Program-made: the position numbers and the translations under genes
Assembly: GCA_026988015.1 (NCBI GenBank)
Contig: JALSMA010000051.1
Location: 1-43,933 of the forward strand
Origin: Desulfobulbaceae bacterium
GTDB taxonomy: Bacteria > Desulfobacterota > Desulfobulbia > Desulfobulbales > Desulfocapsaceae
Direction: 5' to 3'
Length of the DNA stretch: 43,933 bases
Shown here: positions 5,291 to 15,826 of the stretch, in pieces
Layout: each line of letters starts with the position of its first letter
Position numbering within the stretch: the stretch's first letter is position 1
The notes under the pieces: model-generated
Databases searched by the model: none
Told to the model about the DNA's origin: nothing
Seen by the model: only the letters and a program-made list of their open reading frames with translations

Positions 5291-5540
5291 TGGTCAAGTA
5301 AAGGTGGACATTTTGTTAAGCAGCCTTTTGTAAAGCTGTCTCCTTTTCCCAATCCACTGGACTCATTTATCCCAGATGATAGTGAAGCCGTCAGCTGTTG
5401 TAAAACATCTCTATGTAATCCACGATGTCTCCCTTAGCATGAACAATGGTGTATAACCCTCCCCGTTAACCAGCTCGATCTTGAGTGTGCCGAAAAAACT
5501 TTCCGCTACGGCATTATCCAGGCAGCCCTGGGGGCTTCTT
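5291..5540 (-). pseudogene. IS3-family transposase OrfB C-terminal fragment (left copy)
   Basis: On the minus strand the sequence reads CLDNAVAESFFGTLKIELVNGEGY, the conserved end of the IS3 OrfB integrase core, followed after frame breaks by DYIEMFYNS. The element end is at 5291-5310, TGGTCAAGTAAAGGTGGACA. A related end with two mismatches occurs at 16018-16037. Everything upstream of the last third of OrfB is missing. The fragment directly abuts the truncated methyltransferase, so the insertion or a later deletion probably removed that gene's start. Confidence 0.7.
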
Positions 5541-5935
5541 TTGATAAATAATCCGCCAGACAACATAGATGATGGCAGGTTCGGGGAAATTAAATATATT
5601 GCAAGGGAGGAGACTTTGGGGAAAAATTGTCAGCTTCAGTTTCTGGCAGCAGACGCTACTGATCCTCCATTTATAGGAGCAGTCTTCGATGCGGTTGTTT
5701 GTCGCAATCTGCTTTGGACTTTGCCCGACCCGGCTCTGGCCTTGCAGCGGTGGCAGCAGGTCTTAAAACCCGGTGGCAAGCTGGTTGTCTCCGATGGAAT
5801 CTGGAGGGCTAAAGGGATAAAAGAAAGGATCAGGCAATATTTTCGTCTAATGGTTTCGGTTATGCAAAAAGGCTTGACCAATTCCACTTCGATGCAGTTT
5901 TTCCTTACTTAAAATCGGCTTCGGGACAGACTCCC
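5540..5935 (+). pseudogene. Class I SAM-dependent methyltransferase, truncated and frameshifted
   Basis: The C-terminal half of a class I methyltransferase can be read: FLAADATDPPFIGAVFDAVVCRNLLWTLPDPALALQRWQQVLKPGG-KLVVSDG. These are motifs II-VI, with the typical acidic D near 'AADATDPPF' and the post-motif LKPGG loop. The glycine-rich SAM-binding motif I and everything before it are missing, replaced by IS3-type debris. Near 5850-5870 the homologous frame appears to shift: one frame ends NSTSMQFFLT-stop at 5912, while another continues GYAKRLDQFHFDAVFPYLKS to a stop near 5946. Methyltransferases of this type often sit next to metal-complex ABC importers, which fits the neighbours. I judge it non-functional. 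Confidence 0.6.
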
Positions 5936-5946
5936 ATGTTCCAATA

Positions 5947-6240
5947 GTATCCATGCAGAATCAGCAAGGAAACTTTTGCTCAATACCGATTTCACGCAAC
6001 CGATGCAACACGAGAAAATGTTTTCTCATCATCCTTATCCGATATTTTACGGTTCTCATTTTTTCGTTATTAGCTGCACACGACCATAGTTCATCCTTTT
6101 CTGCCCACACTTCCTGGTCTGCTCCGGGAACAGAGGGCTCGTTGCGGCCTCACCTTCCTCATTTATTCACACCGTTTCGAAGGGAGCCACAACATCGTTT
6201 TTTAAGTTGTTGACAAAAAACCGATTCCTTACTACCACAC
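5947..6240. other. Intergenic stretch with no supported gene
   Basis: About 290 bp between the methyltransferase remnant and the first NikR-like site. The open frames here are short, low in recognisable motifs, and without a good ribosome-binding site. It may be further gene debris; I see no RNA gene. Confidence 0.4.
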
Positions 6241-6242
6241 GA

Positions 6243-6269
6243 GTAATACGAAATTGATTAACGTGTTAC
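6243..6269. promoter_or_regulatory. NikR-like operator 1
   Basis: GTAATAC (6243-6249), 13 bp, GTGTTAC (6263-6269). It has the same architecture and spacing as the two palindromes between the ABC operons and differs by one base in one arm. It lies about 360 bp before the FmdE-like start, the only intact plus-strand gene it could serve. Confidence 0.55.
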
Positions 6270-6456
6270 TTGCCCTCTTATTTACTCTTTCGCCGTAAAG
6301 TGACTGTCTCGCTGTCACGTCACAGGTGAGTAAAGAAACGAACACAGGTTAGATACGTAACAACTACATCCTGCAATTGACAAGTTTACTGGAGAAGCGA
6401 AGTTCAATGACGATGACATATTCGCTACTTCAATCCATAGACAGGGAAGCAGACTG

Positions 6457-6608
6457 GGTGAAATGTCAATCCTGAAGGGAAAAGAAAACGAAAATATGTA
6501 TATTTATCCAGGTAGTGGATAGGCTATCTCAACAAATAATACATAAAACATCGAAATAAAGTGTGAATTTTTTTCATTTTCTGAAGTGCAGGAATTAAGG
6601 ACTACATT
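6457..6608 (+). repeat. Diverged direct repeat, copy A (before the FmdE-like gene)
   Basis: A segment of about 150 bp that aligns by eye, almost without gaps, to 7246-7397 (offset 789 bp). Shared blocks are GGTGARAT/TGTCAAT at the start, ATGTATATT, AGCTAT/GGCTAT, and TTTTCATTTTCTGAAGT near the end. It ends 20 bp before the FmdE-like start codon, so it is that gene's promoter/leader region. Confidence 0.65.
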
Positions 6609-6627
6609 TCCATGACAGGAGAACATA

Positions 6628-7230
6628 ATGATAGTGCCCATGGATTTATACAGCCTGGTTCAAAGAAAAGGATATTTAAGCCCTGAAATGGCCATTGGTT
6701 GGAAAATTGGAACATATGTGGCGGAATATTTCGATGATTTGAGCGATGTGGGAGTAGCAGCAGTTTCTGACAATGATGCTGTTCTGGCTCTTTTACATCT
6801 GATACAGGGAAACGGTTATCCTGGGCGAATAGTTGTGCCCAAGTCCGCCAGACCCTGGGATTTTCTCTTTTACCATCTCACCACTGGAACACAACTGAGC
6901 TTCACACTCATCAGGAAGCGTACTGAGTTGCCACAGAAAATTCGAGAGCTGGAAGCAGAATTGTGTGAGCACAACCACGACGAACTGGAAAGATACCAGG
7001 CAAGTCTTGATTTCCTGATAAAATCGATCCTTCGTGAGCCAGTGACAAGTTTTTCCCTTATCCGTCAGAGCCGTTGTCGACGTTTGCATATACAGAACGA
7101 GGAAGGTCATTTGATTCACTGCCATCATTGTGGTAGCCTGATTCCTCCTGACAGGGCCTGGGATGTTGAAGGTGACATCTGCTGCCTGTCCTGTGCCGGC
7201 CTTGAACCAGTTTGGGGAATCTACCATTGA
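6628..7230 (+). CDS. Divergent FmdE-like protein with C-terminal zinc ribbon
   Basis: A 200-residue protein whose layout matches FmdE-family proteins (PF02663 type). GYLSPEMAIGWKIG (15-28) corresponds to the HGHxCxGxxIG block. AAVSDNDAVLALLHLIQGNGYPGR corresponds to the D-x-C-x-x-D-A-I-Q...TGC-x-x-GK block. The C-terminus carries a zinc ribbon (C165-x2-C168 and C186-x2-C189). The canonical His-Gly-His and Cys ligands of the N-terminal block are replaced (RKGY, S18), and the two later Cys are Ala and Tyr, so the usual ligand site is gone while the ribbon remains. AGGAG seven bases before the ATG at 6628 supports the start. It converges on the FecE-type operon and may act in metal handling; function unproven. 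Confidence 0.7.
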   Translation: MIVPMDLYSLVQRKGYLSPEMAIGWKIGTYVAEYFDDLSDVGVAAVSDNDAVLALLHLIQGNGYPGRIVVPKSARPWDFLFYHLTTGTQLSFTLIRKRTELPQKIRELEAELCEHNHDELERYQASLDFLIKSILREPVTSFSLIRQSRCRRLHIQNEEGHLIHCHHCGSLIPPDRAWDVEGDICCLSCAGLEPVWGIYH

Positions 7231-7245
7231 TAACGAAGAAAATTT

Positions 7246-7397
7246 GGTGAGATTGTCAATTCCACAGGGCAAGAGAATGAAATAATGTATATTCACTCAA
7301 ATAGTGAACAAGCTATTGCGGCGAATAAGGCATAAGTGACGAAATATAGAATGAAAACTCTTTTCATTTTCTGAAGTTCAGGGTTTAAGTCATACTT
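7246..7397 (+). repeat. Diverged direct repeat, copy B (after the FmdE-like gene)
   Basis: Second copy of the segment at 6457-6608, lying in the convergent gap between the FmdE-like gene and the FecE-type gene, 18 bp from the latter's stop. It has no gene behind it. The simplest reading is that a leader-plus-gene unit of about 789 bp was tandemly duplicated and the second gene was lost. Confidence 0.6.
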
Positions 7398-7414
7398 CAT
7401 TCAAGTCATTGTAG

Positions 7415-8185
7415 CTACTGGCCAGTGTCATCCAGCGGATGAATGACGGGGTGTCCGTTCCGGTATTCTATTTCCACATCTACTCCATATACCTCTTCGA
7501 TAACCTCTGGATTTATACTCTCGCATCCGCCACAGGAAATTATTTCACCATTTTTTAAAAAGAGAAACTTGTCTGCATAGCGCATGGCAGTATTGAGATC
7601 ATGCATTGTCATAACGGCCGATACTTGATGGCTCTTCACCACATCCTTTACGGTATTCATAATTTCAAGCTGATTTTTCAGATCAAGATTACTGGTTGGT
7701 TCGTCAAGCAGCAGTATTTCAGGCTCCTGGACAAGTGCTCGACCAATTGATACCTTTTGCAGTTCTCCGCCACTTAGGCGGTCTATATGGCGCAGTGACA
7801 GGTGTTCAAGGGAAAGTCGCCTTATTACAGCATCGACCATGCGAATATCTTTTTCTCTCACCCTCCACCTGATATATGGCTTGCGGCCAAGGAGTATACT
7901 GTCAAAAACAGTCAATCGTGCAGTCTCAAGTCTTTGTGGTACATAGCCAAATAATCGGGCAATTTCATTCTGACTCATTGCAAAAACATTTCTTTCTTCA
8001 ACAAGAACAGTACCACCATCAGGCCTGTGAATGCTATTCATGCATTTCAGCAAAGTGGTTTTACCCGCTCCATTGGGGCCAAGAATGGCCAGCAGCTCCC
8101 CCCGGTTAACATGAAAAGATATTTTTTCAAGGACAGAACAACCATTGTAAGCAAATGAAACGCCATTTACATTCACATTAATCAT
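7415..8185 (-). CDS. FecE/BtuD-type ABC importer ATPase
   Basis: The 256-residue ATP-binding subunit of a siderophore/metal-complex/cobalamin-class importer. Walker A is GPNGAGKTT (36-44), the signature LSGGE (137-141), and Walker B ILLLDEP (157-163); the Q-loop reads YVPQRLE and the switch histidine follows in MTMHDLN. It overlaps the permease gene by 4 bp, so the two are probably translationally coupled, and ends a three-gene minus-strand operon. The paired operators upstream of the operon point to nickel control, but the family also moves iron-siderophore, heme and corrinoid complexes, so the substrate stays open. Confidence 0.9.
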   Translation of the reverse strand: MINVNVNGVSFAYNGCSVLEKISFHVNRGELLAILGPNGAGKTTLLKCMNSIHRPDGGTVLVEERNVFAMSQNEIARLFGYVPQRLETARLTVFDSILLGRKPYIRWRVREKDIRMVDAVIRRLSLEHLSLRHIDRLSGGELQKVSIGRALVQEPEILLLDEPTSNLDLKNQLEIMNTVKDVVKSHQVSAVMTMHDLNTAMRYADKFLFLKNGEIISCGGCESINPEVIEEVYGVDVEIEYRNGHPVIHPLDDTGQ

Positions 8186-9249
8186 CTGTTGCTCCGTATA
8201 ATCAGCCAGATGAACACAGGCGCCCCCATGAAAGCGGTAAGAATTGACACCGGCAGTACATTGGGGGCCAGCATAAGCCTTGCGGCAGTATCAGCAGCAA
8301 GCAGCAATATCCCGCCAACGAGACAAGAGCCTGGAAGAAGAAACCTGTAATCGTCACCTATCAGTCTTCTGCATACATGCGGACAGACAAGACCGACAAA
8401 ACCGATGATTCCAAGAAAGGAAATAATAACAGCAGTAACAAGTGAGGCAATAAGCATACCGATTATGCGAACCTGTTCAACTTTAACCCCAAGACCTTTG
8501 GCCGTCTCATCGCCGGCTTCAATGGCATTAAAATTCCAGCGGTTTAAAAAAAACCACACAGAGGCTCCGCTTACCACGACTGCGATCAGCAGTAATTCTA
8601 TCCATGAGGCTCTGGCTACATCACCAAAAGTCCAGAATACCATTGCCGCCAGTTGGATATCATCCGCAAAATATTGAAGAAACATGGTTCCCGCTGTAAA
8701 AAGGGAGCCAAGGGCAACGCCTGTGAGTATCATTGTCTCCGGCCGAGCCATGCGGAGTCTAGAGATGGCTATAATAATACAAGTGGCAATAAGACTGAAG
8801 GCAAAAGCTATGGCTGTGGTCAGGTAAGGACTGTTCAGGCTGACAGCTCCCACATTGCTGCTGGTCATCGTCCCGAGGTCAAGAATCATCACTGAAAAAG
8901 CCGCCCCAAAGGCAGCTGCATGAGAGATGCCAAGGGTGAATGGAGAGCCCAGAGGATTGCGTAGAATAGCCTGCATCACAGCTCCCGCCACGGCCAGTCC
9001 CATACCTGCAACCACCGCCGTGAGTGCCTGAGGAAGACGAATATTCCATATGATCATATCAAACTGCCTGGAAATGCTCTCACCAGACAGGGTTTTTAAC
9101 ACCTCTAGGGGGGATATTAAAACAGGCCCCATGCCAATGGAAAAGATTAATACAAGCCCGACAAAAAACAGGGAAGAGAGCAGAAATGCTACTCGTACCT
9201 TGATGTGTCTGGAGTATTCAACAGGAATTTGACCTCCACTGAAATGCAT
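8182..9249 (-). CDS. FecCD-family ABC importer permease
   Basis: A 355-residue integral membrane subunit with the roughly ten hydrophobic helices of the FecCD/BtuC family. Family hallmarks are visible: RLPQALTAVVAGMGLAVAGAVMQAILRNPL near residues 72-101 and GIIGFVGLVCPHVCRRLIG near 281-299, the latter being the coupling region that docks on the ATPase. The start at 9249 lies 3 bp after the binding-protein stop. A single permease gene is present, so the transporter would be a homodimer in the membrane. Confidence 0.9.
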   Translation of the reverse strand: MHFSGGQIPVEYSRHIKVRVAFLLSSLFFVGLVLIFSIGMGPVLISPLEVLKTLSGESISRQFDMIIWNIRLPQALTAVVAGMGLAVAGAVMQAILRNPLGSPFTLGISHAAAFGAAFSVMILDLGTMTSSNVGAVSLNSPYLTTAIAFAFSLIATCIIIAISRLRMARPETMILTGVALGSLFTAGTMFLQYFADDIQLAAMVFWTFGDVARASWIELLLIAVVVSGASVWFFLNRWNFNAIEAGDETAKGLGVKVEQVRIIGMLIASLVTAVIISFLGIIGFVGLVCPHVCRRLIGDDYRFLLPGSCLVGGILLLAADTAARLMLAPNVLPVSILTAFMGAPVFIWLIIRSNR

Positions 9250-9252
9250 GGC

Positions 9253-10365
9253 TCAATCCAGGGGAACAGGTTTGAAAACCAGTCCCCCAAAAAACCTATC
9301 CATCAACGACAAAACTGGTTTTCCTACCATAAAGGTGTATATTTCATCGGCCTTTATTTGGGGGTCTATATCTGTAAAGCGTTCCGGATATAACACTTTT
9401 CCAATAAAATACGCATTGGCAATGATTGATCCATAATTCATTGTGTACCAATTATAGGGCAAGACCCCATAAACATTACCCTCCCTTACTGCTGCCAAGC
9501 TTTGATAGGCAGGATCTGTACGGAGTTCATAAACTGCTCCGGCGTTTGTACCGAGTTGGGTAGAGGCAAGATCGACAAAAAGTATATCCGGATTCCAGGA
9601 TACAATCTGCTCTCGAGATACATTGGCATGCTGCAGGGGGTTATTCTTCTTTCCAGAGGAACTGGCAACATTAATTGCGTTAACAAAATAAAAAGGAGGA
9701 TAGCCAGGTTCTGTGGATTGAAAACCATGGGGCCCCTTTTTAGCTATTCCACCGATATAGACAGAATATTGTGTTGACTTTGGAATACCTGCTGCCCGTT
9801 GTTCAAGGTCATTAATATTCTTCTCTATAAAGGTACATATTTCAGTAGCTCTTTCCTTTTTGCCTATAATATCTCCCATCAACATGAGGGAATCGTAGAT
9901 AACCTGTCGCCCGAATACAAGATTGGCATAGGAAAGACAAACAACCGGAATTCCAGTTTTTTTCTGCAGTTCATCGGCATCATATCCCATATTTTTAAAG
10001 GTCTTGAAAATTACTTGAGGTTGCTCCTTAAGCCCAAGGATCAGTTCCGGGTTGTCATGTCCCCTGAAGTCACCAAAAAGAGGCTTTTCCCGAAACTGTG
10101 GATTGGCAAGGGCATAGGGGCGGGCATCAAACCTGTTGAGCCGCTTCTCGATACTGTCGACACCAACTACAAGATTTTGACCTTGAATATACGTCAGATA
10201 GCGCAAACATCCAGGGCCGGAACACAACACCCGGTCAACCACCACCGGAACCTCAACCTGTCTTCCGGTCATATCGTTGATTACACGAGTTTCCGCTGAA
10301 TAGCAGGGAGCAACAGAACAAACACTTAGAGTAAATAACAGCAATACTTTAAAAGAATAATTCAT
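9253..10365 (-). CDS. Periplasmic metal-complex binding protein (FecB/BtuF class)
   Basis: A 370-residue type III solute-binding protein, first gene of the fecBDE-like operon. A signal peptide (MNYSFKVLLLFTLSVCSVAPCYSAE) is followed by the standard opening RVINDMTGRQVEVP and then VDRVLCSGPGCLRYLTYI, a variant seen in a subgroup common in archaea and Desulfobacterota. The middle contains SWNPDILFVD and the C-terminal lobe VREGNVYGVLPYNWYTMNYGS. AGAGGAAA before the ATG supports the start. A NikR-like palindrome lies 51-77 bp upstream. Nickel, or a nickel chelate, is the inferred ligand; other metal complexes are possible. Confidence 0.85.
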   Translation of the reverse strand: MNYSFKVLLLFTLSVCSVAPCYSAETRVINDMTGRQVEVPVVVDRVLCSGPGCLRYLTYIQGQNLVVGVDSIEKRLNRFDARPYALANPQFREKPLFGDFRGHDNPELILGLKEQPQVIFKTFKNMGYDADELQKKTGIPVVCLSYANLVFGRQVIYDSLMLMGDIIGKKERATEICTFIEKNINDLEQRAAGIPKSTQYSVYIGGIAKKGPHGFQSTEPGYPPFYFVNAINVASSSGKKNNPLQHANVSREQIVSWNPDILFVDLASTQLGTNAGAVYELRTDPAYQSLAAVREGNVYGVLPYNWYTMNYGSIIANAYFIGKVLYPERFTDIDPQIKADEIYTFMVGKPVLSLMDRFFGGLVFKPVPLD

Positions 10366-10415
10366 TCATTTTTTCCTCTGGTATCTTGAATAACAGGAGT
10401 TTTGACCGGAACAAA

Positions 10416-10442
10416 GTAACACGTATGCCGAAAAGGTGTTAC
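10416..10442. promoter_or_regulatory. NikR-like operator 2 (FecB-type operon)
   Basis: GTAACAC (10416-10422), 13-bp spacer, GTGTTAC (10436-10442): a perfect palindrome 51 bp upstream of the FecB-type start codon on the minus strand. From memory, half-sites of this kind (GTAACAC/GTGTTAC) have been predicted for NikR in delta-proteobacteria. Confidence 0.7.
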
Positions 10443-10587
10443 TATACAGAGAGAGAGTCTCCTTGTCAATAATCATGGTAGCAGCACCAAAACTAATTCT
10501 TTTCAGACCAATTCAACTGTTTCATTCGACAAAAACAGTCTGTTTTTTATTCTTGACAAGAAAACTGTTATCAGCTATTCATCGCCG

Positions 10588-10614
10588 GTAACACGTTACC
10601 GAAAAACGTGTTAC
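10588..10614. promoter_or_regulatory. NikR-like operator 3 (NikA-type operon)
   Basis: GTAACAC (10588-10594), 13-bp spacer, GTGTTAC (10608-10614), 114 bp before the NikA-type start. It is identical in arms and spacing to operator 2, and the spacers share CCGAAAA. Having one copy per divergent operon in a 362-bp gap argues for a common regulator. Confidence 0.7.
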
Positions 10615-10727: not shown

Positions 10728-12302
10728 ATGAACAGAAAACAGTGCTTTCTTGCTCTATGTACAGCTATACTTTTTACCATGATTTTTGGAGCTCTTTCCG
10801 TTACTGCTATGGCCAAAGACACGCTTACCCTGGCTCTACGGGGTGAACCCTCTGACGGTTTCAACCCCCTGATGGGATGGGGCAGGTATGGTAACCCCTT
10901 GTTCCAGAGTACTCTGTTTAAATATGACGATGACCTTAATCCAATCAATGACCTAGCCACTGGCTATATTGTTTCTCAAGATGGACTTCTCTGGACAGTA
11001 AACATTCGTCAGGATGCCAGATTTTCCGACGGAAAGCCTGTTTCTGCTGAAGATGTGGCCTTTACATTTAACAAGACGAAGACATCCAGTGGCAAGGTTG
11101 ATCTTACTCAAATGAAGGAAGCATTTGCCACCGCTGCTAATGTTATAGAATTTCGTTTTGAAAAACCAGACAGCACTTTTATTCACAAACTGCTGACCCT
11201 TGGTATCGTACCAAAACACCTTTATACCATGGATTATGGCAGGAACCCGGTTGGTTCAGGTCCCTTTAAGATGATCTCCTGGGTTGAAGGGGAGCAGATG
11301 AGCGTGGAGCCAAATCCCTATTACTATGGTAAGCCGTCACCTTTTAAAAAGATAACCTTTCTTTATGGCAAGGAAGATACCATGTTTGCTGCTGCCAAGG
11401 CGGGCAAATTGGATATGGTTGTGGTTCCTCCTCATCTGGGTCACCAGAAGGTTAAGGGGATGCATGTGAAAGCGGTGAGAAGTGTTGATAATCGGGGGTT
11501 GATGTTTCCGGTTGTGCCGAATGAGGGGAAAAAGACAGATGATGGTGCTCCCATTGGTAATGATGTCACGGCAGATATTGCTATCCGTAAGGCCATAAAC
11601 ATGGCTCTTGATCGCAACAAATTGGTGGATGGTGTCCTGTATGGTTATGGCAGGCCGGCATACTTTGTCTGTGATGGATTGGCCTGGGATAATCCAGTCA
11701 ATAAAATTAAAGATGGCGATCCCAAGGGAGCGAGAAAACTGCTGGCCGATGCAGGCTGGAAAGATGTTGATGGTGACGGGGTTCTGGAGAAAAATGGTTT
11801 GAAGGCAGAGTTTACCCTGGTGTATCCGGCAGACCGTTCCATTCGTCAAGGTCTGGCTCTGGCCACCTCGGATATGTTGCGTGAGATTGGTATTAAAGCC
11901 AATGTGATAGGTAAGAGCTGGGATGAGATAAAGGGCTTGCGGCACGCCAATGTGATTGTTTATGGCTGGGGCAATCACACTCCCATAGAAATATATAGTC
12001 TTTACTACAGTGAAAGTGACAATAATCGAGGTTTCTACAAAAATCCGAAGGTAGATGAGTATTTGAAAAAGGCCATAACTTCTGTTTCTTTTGCAGACTC
12101 TATGCAGTGGTGGAAAAAGGCACAATGGGATGGTGAAACCGGAGCAGGACCAAAGGGTGATGCTCCCTGGGCCTGGCTGGTGAACCTTGATCATGTATAT
12201 TTTGTCAGTGATAAACTTGATATTGGCAAATCAAGGGTGGAGCCACATGGTCATGGCTGGCCCATTACAGCAAACATAACCGATTGGAAGATATTGGATT
12301 AA
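10728..12302 (+). CDS. nikA: NikA/CntA-type periplasmic binding protein
   Basis: A 524-residue SBP_bac_5 solute-binding protein. A signal peptide ends at AMA (about residue 29). The mature start TLTLALRGEPSDGFNPLMGWGRYG and the block LWTVNIRQDARFSDGKPVSAEDVAFTF are typical of the nickel/opine-metallophore branch; FSDGKPVSAEDVAFTF is the family signature. The C-terminal lobe includes the repeated DVDGDGVLEKNG insert also found in nickel-type members. GGAGGAAAAA directly before the ATG gives a strong start. Operator 3 lies upstream. First gene of nikABCDE; dipeptide transport is the alternative but the operator favours nickel. Confidence 0.85.
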   Translation: MNRKQCFLALCTAILFTMIFGALSVTAMAKDTLTLALRGEPSDGFNPLMGWGRYGNPLFQSTLFKYDDDLNPINDLATGYIVSQDGLLWTVNIRQDARFSDGKPVSAEDVAFTFNKTKTSSGKVDLTQMKEAFATAANVIEFRFEKPDSTFIHKLLTLGIVPKHLYTMDYGRNPVGSGPFKMISWVEGEQMSVEPNPYYYGKPSPFKKITFLYGKEDTMFAAAKAGKLDMVVVPPHLGHQKVKGMHVKAVRSVDNRGLMFPVVPNEGKKTDDGAPIGNDVTADIAIRKAINMALDRNKLVDGVLYGYGRPAYFVCDGLAWDNPVNKIKDGDPKGARKLLADAGWKDVDGDGVLEKNGLKAEFTLVYPADRSIRQGLALATSDMLREIGIKANVIGKSWDEIKGLRHANVIVYGWGNHTPIEIYSLYYSESDNNRGFYKNPKVDEYLKKAITSVSFADSMQWWKKAQWDGETGAGPKGDAPWAWLVNLDHVYFVSDKLDIGKSRVEPHGHGWPITANITDWKILD

Positions 12303-12319
12303 CTTTATATATATCACAA

Positions 12320-12345
12320 ATGGTCGCAAATGGAATTGCGGCCAT
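12320..12345 (+). other. Hairpin after nikA
   Basis: ATGGTCGCAA pairs with TTGCGGCCAT (one wobble pair, 6-nt loop), 18 bp after the nikA stop and directly before the intrinsic terminator. It could protect the 3' end of a nikA-only transcript. Confidence 0.5.
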
Positions 12346-12357
12346 TACTCTAATCCT

Positions 12358-12406
12358 GCAAGCTGTTTTTTTTTGTTCATGGAAAAACAGCTTGCAGCTT
12401 TTTTTT
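12358..12406 (+). terminator. Intrinsic terminator/attenuator between nikA and nikB
   Basis: GCAAGCTGTTTTT (12358-12370) pairs with AAAAACAGCTTGC (12383-12395), and a run of eight T follows (12399-12406). Being inside the operon, it should let most transcripts stop after the binding-protein gene and a fraction read into nikBCDE. Confidence 0.8.
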
Positions 12407-12423
12407 AAAGGGTATCGCCATAA

Positions 12424-13410
12424 ATGAAAACATTCTGTAAATATTTTGCCTCCAAAATGCTACGCCTGAGTATTATCGTTGCTGTGGTTTCGGTTCTCTC
12501 GTTTGTTTTGGTCAGCTTTGCCCCCCTTGATCCAATCACCGCTTACCTCGGGTACGACAGGTTGCAGATTAGCCAGGAGCAGGAAGCGCAGATTATCTCC
12601 CGCTGGGGACTGGATAAATCCCCCCCTGAGCGGTTTCTTTCCTGGGCAGGTAATATTCTTCGGGGTGATTTTGGTAAGTCAGTTATTTTTAACGAACCGG
12701 TGGTTGATGTAATTGGCAAGCGTTTTGTCGCTTCCTTCTGGTTGATGTTTTTTGCCTGGCTCTTTTCAGGACTGCTTGGTTTTATCCTGGGGGCGGTGGC
12801 AGGAACCTTCAGAAATAGTCTTGCCGACCGGGTTATACGCTTCTACGCCTATACCCTGGCTTCGACTCCCACATTCTGGGTGGCCATGATTCTACTGGTT
12901 TTCTTCGCCGTGAAACTGGGTTGGTTTCCGGTTTGCTGTGCGGGCCCTCTTGGTGTTGCCCCTGAAGATGTCAGTTTTGCCGACCGACTGTATCATTTGG
13001 CATTGCCGGTTCTTACACTCTCCCTTGTTGGTATTGCCCAGATAACTCTCCATACCAGGGAAAAGATGATTGATTTCTTCCAGAGTAACCATGCCACATA
13101 CGCTCTGGCCTGTGGTGAAACCCGTAGCAGTACAGCTATTTTTCACGGCTTGAGAAATATCCTCCTGCCGGCAATCACCTTACAATTTGCATCCCTGGGA
13201 GAGTTGTTCAGCGGCTCGGTTCTGGCCGAAGTGGTTTTTTCTTACCCCGGTCTGGGGAAGGCTACTGTTGATGCTGGAATCAGGGGTGATGTTCCCCTGT
13301 TATTGGGAGTCGTCATATTCAGTACCATATTTGTGGTTGTTGGTAACCTTATAGCCGATCTTCTTTATACTCTGGTTGACCCCAGAGTTCGAACGGAGGA
13401 GGCGATATGA
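12424..13410 (+). CDS. nikB: NikB/DppB-type ABC permease
   Basis: A 328-residue BPD_transp_1 permease. The first membrane helix sits at residues 13-33. The periplasmic DKSPPERFLSWAGNILRGDFGKSV block is typical of DppB/NikB. The coupling (EAA) loop region runs through ALACGETRSSTAIFHGLRNILLPAI, followed by SGSVLAEVVFSYPGLGKATVDA, a strong family signature. The stop overlaps the start of nikC by 4 bp. It would pair with NikC to form the inner-membrane channel. Confidence 0.9.
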   Translation: MKTFCKYFASKMLRLSIIVAVVSVLSFVLVSFAPLDPITAYLGYDRLQISQEQEAQIISRWGLDKSPPERFLSWAGNILRGDFGKSVIFNEPVVDVIGKRFVASFWLMFFAWLFSGLLGFILGAVAGTFRNSLADRVIRFYAYTLASTPTFWVAMILLVFFAVKLGWFPVCCAGPLGVAPEDVSFADRLYHLALPVLTLSLVGIAQITLHTREKMIDFFQSNHATYALACGETRSSTAIFHGLRNILLPAITLQFASLGELFSGSVLAEVVFSYPGLGKATVDAGIRGDVPLLLGVVIFSTIFVVVGNLIADLLYTLVDPRVRTEEAI

Positions 13411-14261
13411 CAAATACCATAGTGCAACAGCCTAAGCAGGTATCCTTGTTACAACGGAAAAAAGCGGTTTTGATCTGCCTTTGCTGTGTATTCTTTTTTG
13501 TCGCCCTCTATATTGCCGGTGCGATGATGGGAGATACCGGCTTGCGGACGGATTTTCTGCACCGCAACCTGCCGCCTTCTCTGGATTACCCCTTCGGTAC
13601 CGACTGGCTCGGCAGGGATTTGCTTACCCGAACTGTAAAGGGCCTGTGCATCAGTATTCAGATTGGGATGCTTGCCGCCATGTGTAGTGCCGTACTGGCA
13701 GGACTTCTTGGTGTAGCTGCGGCAACCTTTGGGGGCAAAGTGGACACTGTTATTACCGGAATGATTGATGTGGTCATGTCCACACCCCACCTGGTAATGC
13801 TGATTCTTATCTCTTTTGCCATGGGTGGGGGAGTACAGGGAGTGGTAGTCGCCGTGGCATTGACTCATTGGACCAGGCTGGCAAGAATTTTGCGTGCAGA
13901 GGTCATGCAGTTGAAAAATGCAGACTATCTACAGCTATCGACCCGGCTGGGAAAGAGTAAACTCTGGATTGCCCGTAACCACATTCTTCCTCATCTATTG
14001 CCTCAGTTTGTGATCGGTTTGATTTTGCTTTTTCCCCATGCCATTTTACACTCTGCCGGTCTTTCTTTTCTGGGTTTCGGGCTTACTCCCCATAATCCGT
14101 CCATTGGTATTTTGCTCTCCGAGTCCATGCAGCAACTCTCAACGGGACACTGGTGGCTGGCGGTTATTCCCGGAGTCTGCCTTATTTGCATGGTAAAGGT
14201 GTTTGATATTCTCGGTAACACCCTTCGTTACCTGAGCGATCCGCAAACTTCACAACAATAG
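13407..14261 (+). CDS. nikC: NikC/DppC-type ABC permease
   Basis: A 284-residue second permease. The opening shows one membrane helix, then FGTDWLGRDLLTRTVKGLCISIQIG, the DppC/NikC hallmark. LSTRLGKSKLWIARNHILPHLLPQFVIG is the EAA coupling loop and HSAGLSFLGFGLTPHNPSIGILL is the C-terminal signature. It begins inside the nikB stop (ATGA overlap) and ends 13 bp before nikD. It partners NikB. Confidence 0.9.
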   Translation: MTNTIVQQPKQVSLLQRKKAVLICLCCVFFFVALYIAGAMMGDTGLRTDFLHRNLPPSLDYPFGTDWLGRDLLTRTVKGLCISIQIGMLAAMCSAVLAGLLGVAAATFGGKVDTVITGMIDVVMSTPHLVMLILISFAMGGGVQGVVVAVALTHWTRLARILRAEVMQLKNADYLQLSTRLGKSKLWIARNHILPHLLPQFVIGLILLFPHAILHSAGLSFLGFGLTPHNPSIGILLSESMQQLSTGHWWLAVIPGVCLICMVKVFDILGNTLRYLSDPQTSQQ

Positions 14262-14274
14262 GAAAAATCGCAAT

Positions 14275-15210
14275 ATGCTTGCCATTGAAGATTTACACAT
14301 CTCTTTCCATCGTTACAACAAGGGGCTGGATAGAACAAAACTCACTCCGGTGCATAACCTTAACCTGGAAATTGGTGTAGGTGAGATTATGGCCATTGTG
14401 GGAGAAAGCGGAGGCGGCAAGAGCCTGCTTGCCCACGCCGTACTGGATATTTTACCAGCCAATGCTGAAACCGGTGGGAAGATCTGTTTTTGTGGGCAGG
14501 AACTTGACAGAAAGAAAATAAACAAGCTTCGAGGGCGTAAAATTTCCCTGGTTCCGCAATCGGTCTCTTATCTTAATCCTCTTTTGACAGTTGGAAGACA
14601 GGTCTTTCGTGCTGCGGTTGTAGCTGGCTTAAGCAAGAAAGAGGCAAAAATAGCAAGAGATTCAGCTTTTGATATGGTCAGTCTGGAGGAAGCAAGCATG
14701 AAACTTTATCCCTTTCAACTTTCAGGTGGTATGGCTCAAAGGGTTCTTGTGGCCATGGCAACCGTGGGAGGGGCACCTTTGATTATTGCAGATGAACCAA
14801 CCACAGGGCTGGACCCTGAGTTGCTTGCCGGTTTTCTGGAGTTGTTGCGAGTAACCATTGATAACGGTCGGGCTGCCATGCTGATAACTCATGATCTTAA
14901 TGCCGCGCGTAAGGTAGCAGATAAAATAGCTGTCTTTGCCGGTGGAACCATAGTGGAAATAATAAATAATCGCGAGAACCTGACAAGTGACAAACTGTCT
15001 CATCCCTACTCCAGGGCTCTATGGGATTCTCTGCCGGAGAATGGCTTCAACCTCAGCGAAATAAAACACACATACTCCGCCCGTGAAAACGGCAACCAAC
15101 AGGGTTGCTTGTTTCGGGGAGCCTGTTGCTGCGACAGAGAGCAATGTGAAAAATCTATACCACCACTTATGCCGGTGAAGCATGGCTTGGTAAGGTGTTG
15201 GAATGCTTGA
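14275..15210 (+). CDS. nikD: NikD/DppD-type ABC ATPase
   Basis: A 311-residue ATPase with Walker A GESGGGKSL (43-51), signature LSGGM (149-153) and Walker B LIIADEP (169-175); MLITHDLN carries the switch histidine. The C-terminal tail contains the oligopeptide/dipeptide extension with five Cys (LFRGACCCDREQCEK), the zone that in many DppD/NikD proteins binds an iron-sulfur cluster or metal; that role is not shown here. It overlaps nikE by 8 bp. Confidence 0.9.
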   Translation: MLAIEDLHISFHRYNKGLDRTKLTPVHNLNLEIGVGEIMAIVGESGGGKSLLAHAVLDILPANAETGGKICFCGQELDRKKINKLRGRKISLVPQSVSYLNPLLTVGRQVFRAAVVAGLSKKEAKIARDSAFDMVSLEEASMKLYPFQLSGGMAQRVLVAMATVGGAPLIIADEPTTGLDPELLAGFLELLRVTIDNGRAAMLITHDLNAARKVADKIAVFAGGTIVEIINNRENLTSDKLSHPYSRALWDSLPENGFNLSEIKHTYSARENGNQQGCLFRGACCCDREQCEKSIPPLMPVKHGLVRCWNA

Positions 15211-15826
15211 AGCCAGAAAAGTCACTTTTCATTATCCTGCCTGCGCAAAACCGGTCCTTACAGATATACATATCAGCATAAACTCTGGTGATATTGTAGG
15301 TGTTTATGGTCCAAGCGGCAGCGGAAAAACCACTCTAGCAAGACTTCTTTCCGGCTACCTCATCCCCGATACCGGTAAGGTGATGGTGGATGGTGTCGAA
15401 CTGCCTCAAAGGGGACGATTGCCAGTGCAACTCCTTAACCAACACCCGGAACTCTCCGTCAATCCACGCTGGATGGTTGGTGAGATTCTTGCCGAAGAAG
15501 CGATGCCCGGACGGGAACTGCTGGCTTCTTTGCGAATTAACAAAGATTGGCTTAAGCGGTATCCTCATGAACTGTCCGGTGGTGAAATCCAGCGAGTAAC
15601 CATTGCCCGAGCCCTCGGTACAGAAACCCGGTATATCATTGCCGATGAGATCACGACCATGCTGGATGCCATCACCCAGGTTCAAATCTGGCAGGTTTTG
15701 CTCGAGGCTGCAAGAAATCGTAATATTGGTATTCTGGTCATCAGTCACGATCACCAGCTTCTGAATCGGGTTTGTAATACAGTATTGCAACTTTCTGGTC
15801 AGTCAGGCGGCCTGAAAGCTGCCTAA
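15203..15826 (+). CDS. nikE: NikE/DppF-type ABC ATPase, short
   Basis: A 207-residue second ATPase with Walker A GPSGSGKTT (36-44), signature LSGGE (124-128) and Walker B YIIADEI (144-150), which has Ile where Pro is usual. It is shorter than typical DppF proteins because it lacks the C-terminal extension, as NikE-like subunits often do. The start lies inside the nikD end, indicating coupled translation. Last gene of the operon; no clear terminator follows before the IS debris at 16018. Confidence 0.88.
   Translation: MLEARKVTFHYPACAKPVLTDIHISINSGDIVGVYGPSGSGKTTLARLLSGYLIPDTGKVMVDGVELPQRGRLPVQLLNQHPELSVNPRWMVGEILAEEAMPGRELLASLRINKDWLKRYPHELSGGEIQRVTIARALGTETRYIIADEITTMLDAITQVQIWQVLLEAARNRNIGILVISHDHQLLNRVCNTVLQLSGQSGGLKAA

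Follow-up and report, generated by a model that had tools for sequence, protein, structure and literature searches.

Which regulator could join two different ATP-binding cassette (ABC) importers to a gene of the FmdE type, and how would it read operators whose half-sites stand in the reverse of the published order? The question is raised by contig JALSMA010000051.1 of a Desulfobulbaceae bacterium (GenBank assembly GCA_026988015.1), whose 43,933 nucleotides were analysed as one stretch and are called the window here. Two palindromic sites lie in the divergent gap between a FecB-type and a NikA/YntA-type transport operon, and a third lies ahead of an FmdE-like gene. We propose, with a probability of roughly 80%, that the three are operators of a single NikR, which would shut off both importers and the FmdE-like gene, and that the half-sites may face in any orientation as long as their distance is fixed.

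Everted sites and the predicted NikR regulon of one genome

A pattern scan of the window identified exact matches to GTAAYAC-N13-GTGTTAC at 6243, 10416 and 10588 (Table 1). A first-pass annotation, made from the letters of the window, had listed these palindromes with their spacer of 13 base pairs (bp), and both positions and exactness are borne out. It had also likened the half-sites to those predicted for NikR in delta-proteobacteria. The half-sites are indeed the same, but their order in the window is everted, the reverse of the published consensus, which in the available text of Rodionov et al. (2004; PMC545781) is the inverted GTGTTAC-N13/14-GTAACAC. That text reports the reversed order as a minority form, in Desulfotalea psychrophila and upstream of nikK in D. 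vulgaris. A reversed type of NikR site was therefore already predicted in 2004, and the new element here is a rule of three arrangements at one fixed distance.

The genome that carries the window (G000; G, C and L numbers denote genomes, contigs and loci) is a 3.15-Mb draft in 91 contigs. It contains five exact GTAAYAC-N13-GTRTTAC sites, the three in the window and those at C23:16071 and C46:2316, whereas the reversed-pattern control gives none; the wider pattern GTRWYAC-N13-GTRWYAC gives six sites and again no control match. Two sites, C23:13012 and C53:3896, have one mismatch. When up to two mismatches are allowed, the genome holds 17 sites and the control 15. Therefore, only exact and one-mismatch sites were counted and taken as meaningful. 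A shuffle control of the window at three mismatches (7 matches; the shuffles averaged 4.08, and 16 in 100 reached 7 or more) was too loose to help. All N13 sites in this genome are everted; the inverted N13 pattern gave no match there.

The five exact sites and the one-mismatch site at nikR adjoin nickel-type genes or the window operons, in agreement with the nickel regulon expected by the first-pass annotation, and the genome has the nikR gene that such a regulon calls for. A profile search gave one NikR_C match (E 8e-35) in a protein that also has the ribbon-helix-helix (RHH) domain and that matches E. coli NikR, Protein Data Bank (PDB) entry 1q5v (E 3e-27). The likely start of nikR lies 2 bases past the end of site C23:13012, and CbiM-, CbiQ- and CbiO-type genes follow (nikR-nikMLQO). 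Site C23:16071 is upstream of a DUF4198 gene (nikK type), and C46:2316 is upstream of a second NikABCDE-type operon that includes a methyltransferase. In the window, 10416 is upstream of the FecB-FecC-ATPase operon, 10588 of the NikA-E operon and 6243 of the FmdE-like gene. The own nikR is divergent from a gene for TrmO (tRNA methyltransferase O) that starts about 60 bp past the operator (L017, 5102-5806); TrmO genes adjoin everted sites in G120 and G182 too.

The divergent gap had been said to hold one site per operon, which is correct because 10416 and 10588 each lie by their own promoter. On the minus strand, the final GT of the FecB promoter's -10 box is the first GT of the 10416 operator, a two-base overlap. 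On the other side, the 10588 operator follows 35 bp downstream of the first base of a TTGACA, found by eye, that points at the NikA operon. A TTGACA also starts 33 bp ahead of the 6243 operator; a promoter scan of 6100-6700 returned nothing above the scanner's rule.

This layout is conserved. In G167, a genome of the same genus, genes for NikA, FecB, FecC, the ATPase and the FmdE-like protein stand in the same order with 82-94% protein identity, and operators occupy all three places, the counterparts of 10416 and 10588 with one mismatch each. In G140, the FmdE-like gene and NikABCDE are adjacent behind one everted site, and FecB-FecC is behind another. Half-sites, spacer length and TTGACA boxes are conserved in alignments of the window, G167 and G140. 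Genome comparison thus gives good support to the predicted nickel and NikR assignment of the three window sites.

Three arrangements at one spacing across the order

The survey covered 193 genomes, sampled evenly from the order. Three half-site ARRANGEMENTS occur across the order, everted, inverted and direct, and each peaks at the 13-bp spacer. With degenerate patterns, everted N13 gives 55 sites in 35 of the 193 genomes (3 in the reversed control), and inverted N13 gives 34 sites in 28 genomes (7 in the control). Among exact pairs with spacers of N6-N20, those at N13 make up 30 of 47 everted, 19 of 28 inverted and 27 of 45 direct pairs; the other 14 spacers together hold 17, 9 and 18, respectively. 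If the control is spread evenly over spacers, the Poisson P values of the N13 counts are 6e-25 (everted), 4e-10 (inverted) and 3e-15 (direct); with the remaining spacers as the expectation, the values are 4e-31, 1e-21 and 2e-26.

Could the sites be chance palindromes? The two-mismatch count in the own genome is compatible with that explanation, and so are totals over all 15 spacers, where the reversed control has 30 everted, 44 inverted and 54 direct pairs against 47, 28 and 45 observed. Inverted and direct pairs as a whole are therefore not above control, and their excess sits at N13. It is this pile-up at N13, together with the excess of exact sites in the own genome and of everted and inverted sites over the 193 genomes, that leaves chance with next to no credibility, and we count it as refuted by the spacing test.

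The sites also track NikR. An exact N13 site is present in 75 of the 193 genomes, namely 74 of the 173 with NikR and 1 of the 20 without (Fisher P 5e-4). Among 65 loci fetched for nikR alone, there are 5 N13 pairs versus 5 at all other gaps of 3-30, which is the right direction on thin numbers. Exact or one-mismatch sites abut nikR in the own genome and in seven relatives (G033, G073, G093, G131, G156, G158 and G160).

To describe neighbouring genes, we used a fetched set of 114 N13 sites (108 distinct sequences): 55 everted, 31 of the 34 inverted (G020, G083 and G186 were left out) and 28 direct, of which 27 come from the survey and one is a degenerate pair in fetched DNA (G026). Genes of the nikR, nikM/cbiM, nikL, nikK or nikA type are near 61 of the 114 (30 of 55 everted, 17 of 31 inverted and 14 of 28 direct), whereas such genes lie within about 4 kb of only 1 in 20 other-spacer pairs (P 4e-5). 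These 20, from a total of 44 pairs, comprise 17 everted, 3 inverted and no direct pairs, and beyond the counted match a CbiK-like gene at 26% lies about 2.8 kb off in L267. Our rule for the starts of open reading frames missed two everted cases, L099 (nikR) and L108 (nikK). The nikM labels derive from a CbiM/NikM protein reference; cobalt transporters may be among the matches near 30%. An operon of the nikMLKQO type stands behind everted sites in G056, G184, G188, G128 and G109, behind inverted sites in G183, G187, G177, G166, G172 and G146, and behind direct sites in G178 and G192.

Twenty further neighbours were scanned with Pfam. They comprise seven TonB receptors, two porin-like proteins (PF13557), two TrmO, one each of LysE, PBP_like_2, nicotianamine synthase (NAS), FmdE and DUF748, a weak DUF6162 match and three proteins without a family. 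Direct-repeat sites lie beside Phenol_MetA_deg (PF13557) porin-like genes at L203 5228-6085 and L200 5130-5924, and such genes might possibly provide an outer-membrane route for nickel. Another unusual locus, L173 4142-4188 (G046), has three serial half-sites, of which the middle one, GTAACAC, belongs both to an inverted site and to an everted site with one mismatch.

A metal regulator other than NikR might bind these sites and merely happen to control nickel genes. One genome, G104, has an exact everted site before nikK (C19:182861; L102 5962) and no NikR detectable by Pfam or protein search, and the TonB receptors that make up seven of the 20 scanned neighbours are found under other metal regulators as well. 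On the other side stand the sites that abut nikR, the association with NikR presence, and the identity of the half-sites with those predicted for NikR in the available text of PMC545781. We consider a different regulator very improbable.

The more demanding question is whether one NikR reads all three arrangements. The half-site words share a GT...AC shell and differ in three core bases; GTATTAC and GTAATAC differ in the central base only. Flanks are alike for both half-site types (138 and 90 half-sites), with a purine-rich outer neighbour and A/T-rich sequence beginning at the second inner base. Genomes with everted, inverted and direct sites have one and the same recognition strand, RFSIS. 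Ten genomes have two exact arrangements and a single NikR_C match (G088, G097, G124, G133, G134, G140, G150, G153, G158 and G183). In G088, G124, G140 and G158, both arrangements are at metal-transport genes, and the same holds for G026 in fetched DNA.

The cleanest case is the own C46 operon, set against its counterpart, the NikABCDE-methyltransferase operon of G179. The NikA proteins are 81% identical, and the promoters are nearly identical from TTGACA to the -10 box. After the -10 box, both half-sites are turned round while the spacer is kept, so that the site is everted in the own genome and inverted in G179. The NikR of G179 is 60% identical to the own NikR and starts with MLKRFSIS, versus MLKRFTVS; G179 also has a second, remote NikR-like match at 26%.

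A tree of NikR gave at least 11 changes of arrangement among single-arrangement genomes; it was built by a quick method from 58 rows (23 of 55 inner branches are weak), with the G171 row dropped and leaving out 25 of 83 NikR rows that lack an exact site.

The position relative to promoters is shared as well. In the fetched operator loci, TTGACA-like boxes (at most one mismatch) lie ahead of operators in 95 cases, and the distances peak at 27 and 33 bp; positions drawn at random from these loci, coding DNA included, gave 36. The 27-bp register, which is also that of the FecB promoter in the window, holds 33 pairs, 25 everted and 8 inverted, and direct operators favour 33 bp (6 pairs). Such a shared register fits a repressor that blocks RNA polymerase.

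Alternatively, these could be NikR operators whose orientation is a fixed trait of the lineage, with a separate NikR version or binding mode (one with a shifted register, for example) for every arrangement. Arrangements are partly sorted by lineage: the own genus is mainly everted, g2 inverted and f5/g42 direct, and among the 16 tree rows of a clade with RFG-type NikR none is labelled everted, so orientation freedom may be incomplete in that clade. However, the ten genomes with one NikR_C match and two arrangements, the five with both arrangements at metal-transport genes, the single recognition strand across all three groups of the main clade, and the similar flanks and promoter register all speak for a common reader. 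Recognition strands specific to an arrangement were searched for in the main clade and were not found. We judge the lineage-bound explanation improbable.

For a single orientation-tolerant NikR, we infer the following mechanism. NikR is a tetramer of two ribbon-helix-helix dimers. When nickel is plentiful, Ni-loaded NikR would cover the three window operators and shut off the FecB-type importer, the YntABCDE-type importer and the FmdE-like partner; because the FecB operator overlaps the -10 box and the other two lie just past theirs, binding would be expected to shut off transcription. In the own genome, the same regulon would extend to nikR-nikMLQO, nikK and the second NikABCDE-methyltransferase operon. 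Each two-fold symmetric dimer would sit symmetrically on one 7-bp near-palindromic GT-nnn-AC half-site and read it in either direction: as the outer GT...AC is self-complementary, the half-site could be reversed (core GTT or AAC) with its outer contacts kept. The tetramer would set the distance only, a 13-bp spacer or 20 bp from centre to centre, and everted, inverted and direct pairs could therefore all be used. In the available text of PMC9499535, ParB of pSM19035, also a ribbon-helix-helix protein, recognizes 7-bp repeats that are combined in different orientations, and its affinity is broadly similar among them. Its repeats are contiguous and it is a partition protein, unlike the two half-sites at a fixed spacing described here, but ParB may be a precedent for orientation-tolerant reading.

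Besides the all-spacer totals, the site-bearing G104 and the RFG-type clade already mentioned, several observations weigh against this proposal. Relatedness among the 193 genomes was ignored in the counts. Under the rule used, 53 of the 114 N13 sites have no listed nickel-type gene nearby, and several of the 20 scanned neighbours are unrelated to transport. Two distant families have one and the same direct 27-mer close to contig ends (L207 573-599 in G008 and L208 5024-5050 in G097), which may be an element common to both and not an operator; in G097 it is not beside a nickel gene, which makes that two-arrangement case doubtful. In the own genome, the one-mismatch site C53:3896 is inside a gene for a sigma-54 response regulator, and the sixth GTRWYAC pair, C41:31255, is in a 594-aa multihaem cytochrome-type frame, both without a link to nickel.

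The two importers and the FmdE-like gene

The first-pass annotation had proposed that the regulon uses two importers of different classes to take up nickel. This is supported for the operon with the 10728 binding protein. That protein is closest to PDB entries 3ry3 (E 4e-127) and 4ofl, YpYntA (E 4e-125), while E. coli NikA is matched at only about 1e-19; the operon (10728-15826) has five genes, as in Yersinia YntABCDE, and its operator is kept in relatives, as is that of the FecB-type operon. Compared with YntABCDE, the window operon differs in having a NikR-type operator ahead of it and a FecB-type importer next to it; compared with E. coli nikABCDE, it belongs to the same importer superfamily with a binding protein nearer to YntA than to NikA.

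In the other operon, the adjacent Peripla_BP_2, FecCD and ABC subunits form an importer of the FecBCD/BtuCDF type, and the nearest structure to its FecB-type binding protein, 2etv, is from a putative iron importer. A distant match to the molybdate protein HI_1472 of H. influenzae (E 1e-5) and the naming of FmdE after a molybdenum enzyme operon suggest another explanation, in which the FecB-type importer and the FmdE-like protein handle a different metal (molybdate or iron, for example) and share with nickel uptake only their control by NikR. However, in both G167 and G140 the genes for FecB, FecC, NikA and the FmdE-like protein are found together, along with NikR-type sites, and a Fec-type nickel importer, NiuBDE, is known in H. 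pylori (PMC5140060, as far as its available text goes). The window importer shares this Fec-type ABC architecture, although it is from a different lineage and is predicted from genes. Because of the H. pylori case, nickel is a plausible substrate, and we regard service to another metal as a somewhat unlikely explanation.

The label FmdE-like is right by fold, but the Pfam FmdE match (PF02663; E 0.0066, 17 bits) is below the gathering cut-off of 22.9. A sequence search of the PDB with this protein returned nothing beyond chance. A Foldseek search with its AlphaFold2 (AF2) model (pLDDT, the predicted local distance difference test, 83.1) gave only 2glz (E 4e-7), 2gvi and 3d00 at E <=0.001, with query-normalised template-modelling (TM) scores of 0.43-0.47. 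In the alignment, RKGYLS replaces the FHGHxC metal ligands, while the C4 finger is retained; the motif is also lost in five close relatives of the protein. We suggest that the protein serves as a sensor or binding partner and not as a metal enzyme. In the available text of PMC2954224, one member of the FmdE family has a mixed zinc/nickel site, and most of the genes adjoin genes for metal-ion transporters. The window protein has the same fold, C-terminal zinc finger and type of neighbours, and differs in having no FHGHxC.

The distance from the 6243 operator to the FmdE-like gene is 359 bp, versus 111 bp in G167 and 114 bp in G140, because the window has an extra stretch that is absent from these two genomes. 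Judging from the arrangement of sites and genes, the operator most likely serves the FmdE-like gene. Assignment to a methyltransferase remnant was considered and rejected, since it is the FmdE-like gene that follows the operator in G167 and in G140; G164 has its operator between the methyltransferase gene and the FmdE-like one. A dispersed repeat flanks the FmdE-like gene (6370-6612 and 7224-7389, with a further copy at C57:27346-27462; 71-75% identical) and accounts for much of its long leader. The methyltransferase pseudogene has no N-terminal part and is beside a weak rve_3 integrase relic, and the region (window 5411-6083) may mark a place where a former Nik-type operon was cut.

Table 1. 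Positions of predicted operators, promoters and genes in the window, and of tandem NAS loci in relatives
Feature	Position	Strand	Basis or remark
Everted NikR-type operator GTAATAC-N13-GTGTTAC, most likely of the FmdE-like gene	6243..6269	no strand	exact match
Everted NikR-type operator, FecB operon	10416..10442	no strand	exact match; overlaps end of -10
Everted NikR-type operator, NikA/YntA operon	10588..10614	no strand	exact match
Promoter TTGACA-17-TATAGT, FecB operon	10441..10469	-	11/12 consensus (promoter scan)
Probable promoter TTGACA-17-TATTCA, NikA/YntA operon	10553..10581	+	by eye, absent from scanner list; -35 kept in G167
Methyltransferase pseudogene	5601..6083	+	tblastn 64% to C46 Nik-operon methyltransferase, residues 81-241
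FmdE-like protein, 200 aa	6628..7230	+	FmdE fold; FHGHxC lost; C-terminal C4 zinc finger kept
ATPase, FecB-type importer	7415..8185	-	PF00005 E 1e-31
FecCD/BtuC-type permease	8182..9249	-	PF01032 E 2e-87; best NCBIfam BtuC, below cut-off
FecB-type periplasmic binding protein	9253..10365	-	PF01497 E 8e-15; nearest PDB chain 2etv E 6e-79
NikA/YntA-type binding protein, predicted nickel	10728..12302	+	PF00496; nearest PDB 3ry3, 4ofl
NikB-type permease	12424..13410	+	PF00528; Opp2B/NikB models below cut-off
NikC-type permease	13407..14261	+	PF00528
NikD-type ATPase	14275..15210	+	PF00005 and oligo_HPY; best NCBIfam NikD, below cut-off
NikE-type ATPase	15203..15826	+	PF00005; best NCBIfam NikE, below cut-off
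Tandem NAS loci (relatives)	L104 6293-7997; L243 5042-6744; L090 3612-5296; L250 9919-11621; L247 13959-15697; L249 997-2735

Known NikR systems, nicotianamine synthases and nickel biology

The delta-proteobacterial NikR regulons in the available text of PMC545781 have the same half-sites, 13-bp spacer and nikMQO and nikK targets. The own genome differs in that everted is its sole N13 form and in adding YntA-type, FecB-type, FmdE-like and nikR targets; the order adds the direct arrangement. E. coli NikR is of the same protein family, but its consensus, quoted in that text as GTATGAT-N13/14-ATCATAC, is inverted and has another half-site. A literature search, largely without full texts and with little of the subscription literature, found reversed NikR sites only in PMC545781; it turned up neither the rule of three arrangements nor a paper that describes NikR operators built of direct repeats or that links NikR to nicotianamine synthase.

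Nicotianamine synthase (PF03059) was found in 8 of the 193 genomes, 7 of them above the cut-off, and not in the own genome. Six relatives (G088, G140, G164, G148, G150 and G153) have tandem NAS pairs, all in neighbourhoods of nickel-type uptake genes. In G088, nikR-nikMLKQO, a one-mismatch site, a TonB receptor and the NAS pair occur together, and in G140 TonB and NAS genes are divergent around an everted site. Several of the tandem-NAS loci carry NikR-type sites and TonB receptors. Tandem NAS genes with nickel uptake genes look like a nickel-dedicated metallophore set, a lead that lies outside the window. The broader proposal joins an any-orientation, fixed-distance rule for NikR, with operators flipped in place during evolution, to a nickel-dedicated metallophore regulon in some lineages (tandem nicotianamine synthases, TonB and a YntA-type importer). 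We favour it by a slight degree.

The order, which is probably Desulfobulbales (where NCBI places Desulfocapsa), also holds nickel-demanding cable bacteria, whose nickel biology is the subject of PMC11247825. In its available text, a Nik/Opp/Dpp importer is restricted to cable bacteria within its order, and NikR appears in the references only. If the order is the same, Nik/Opp/Dpp importers may be more widespread than is stated there, to judge from the operons of the own genome and its relatives. The predicted set of nickel uptake genes would also grow: it would take in YntA-type and FecB-type importers, partners of the FmdE-like and methyltransferase kinds and, in some relatives, NAS. Searches that use only the inverted consensus miss such regulons, since the own genome has no inverted N13 site and five everted ones. 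If the rule proposed here is true, NikR specificity would be set by the identity of the half-sites and their distance, not by their polarity, and NikR would lend itself as a clean natural test case for DNA reading by symmetric ribbon-helix-helix dimers.

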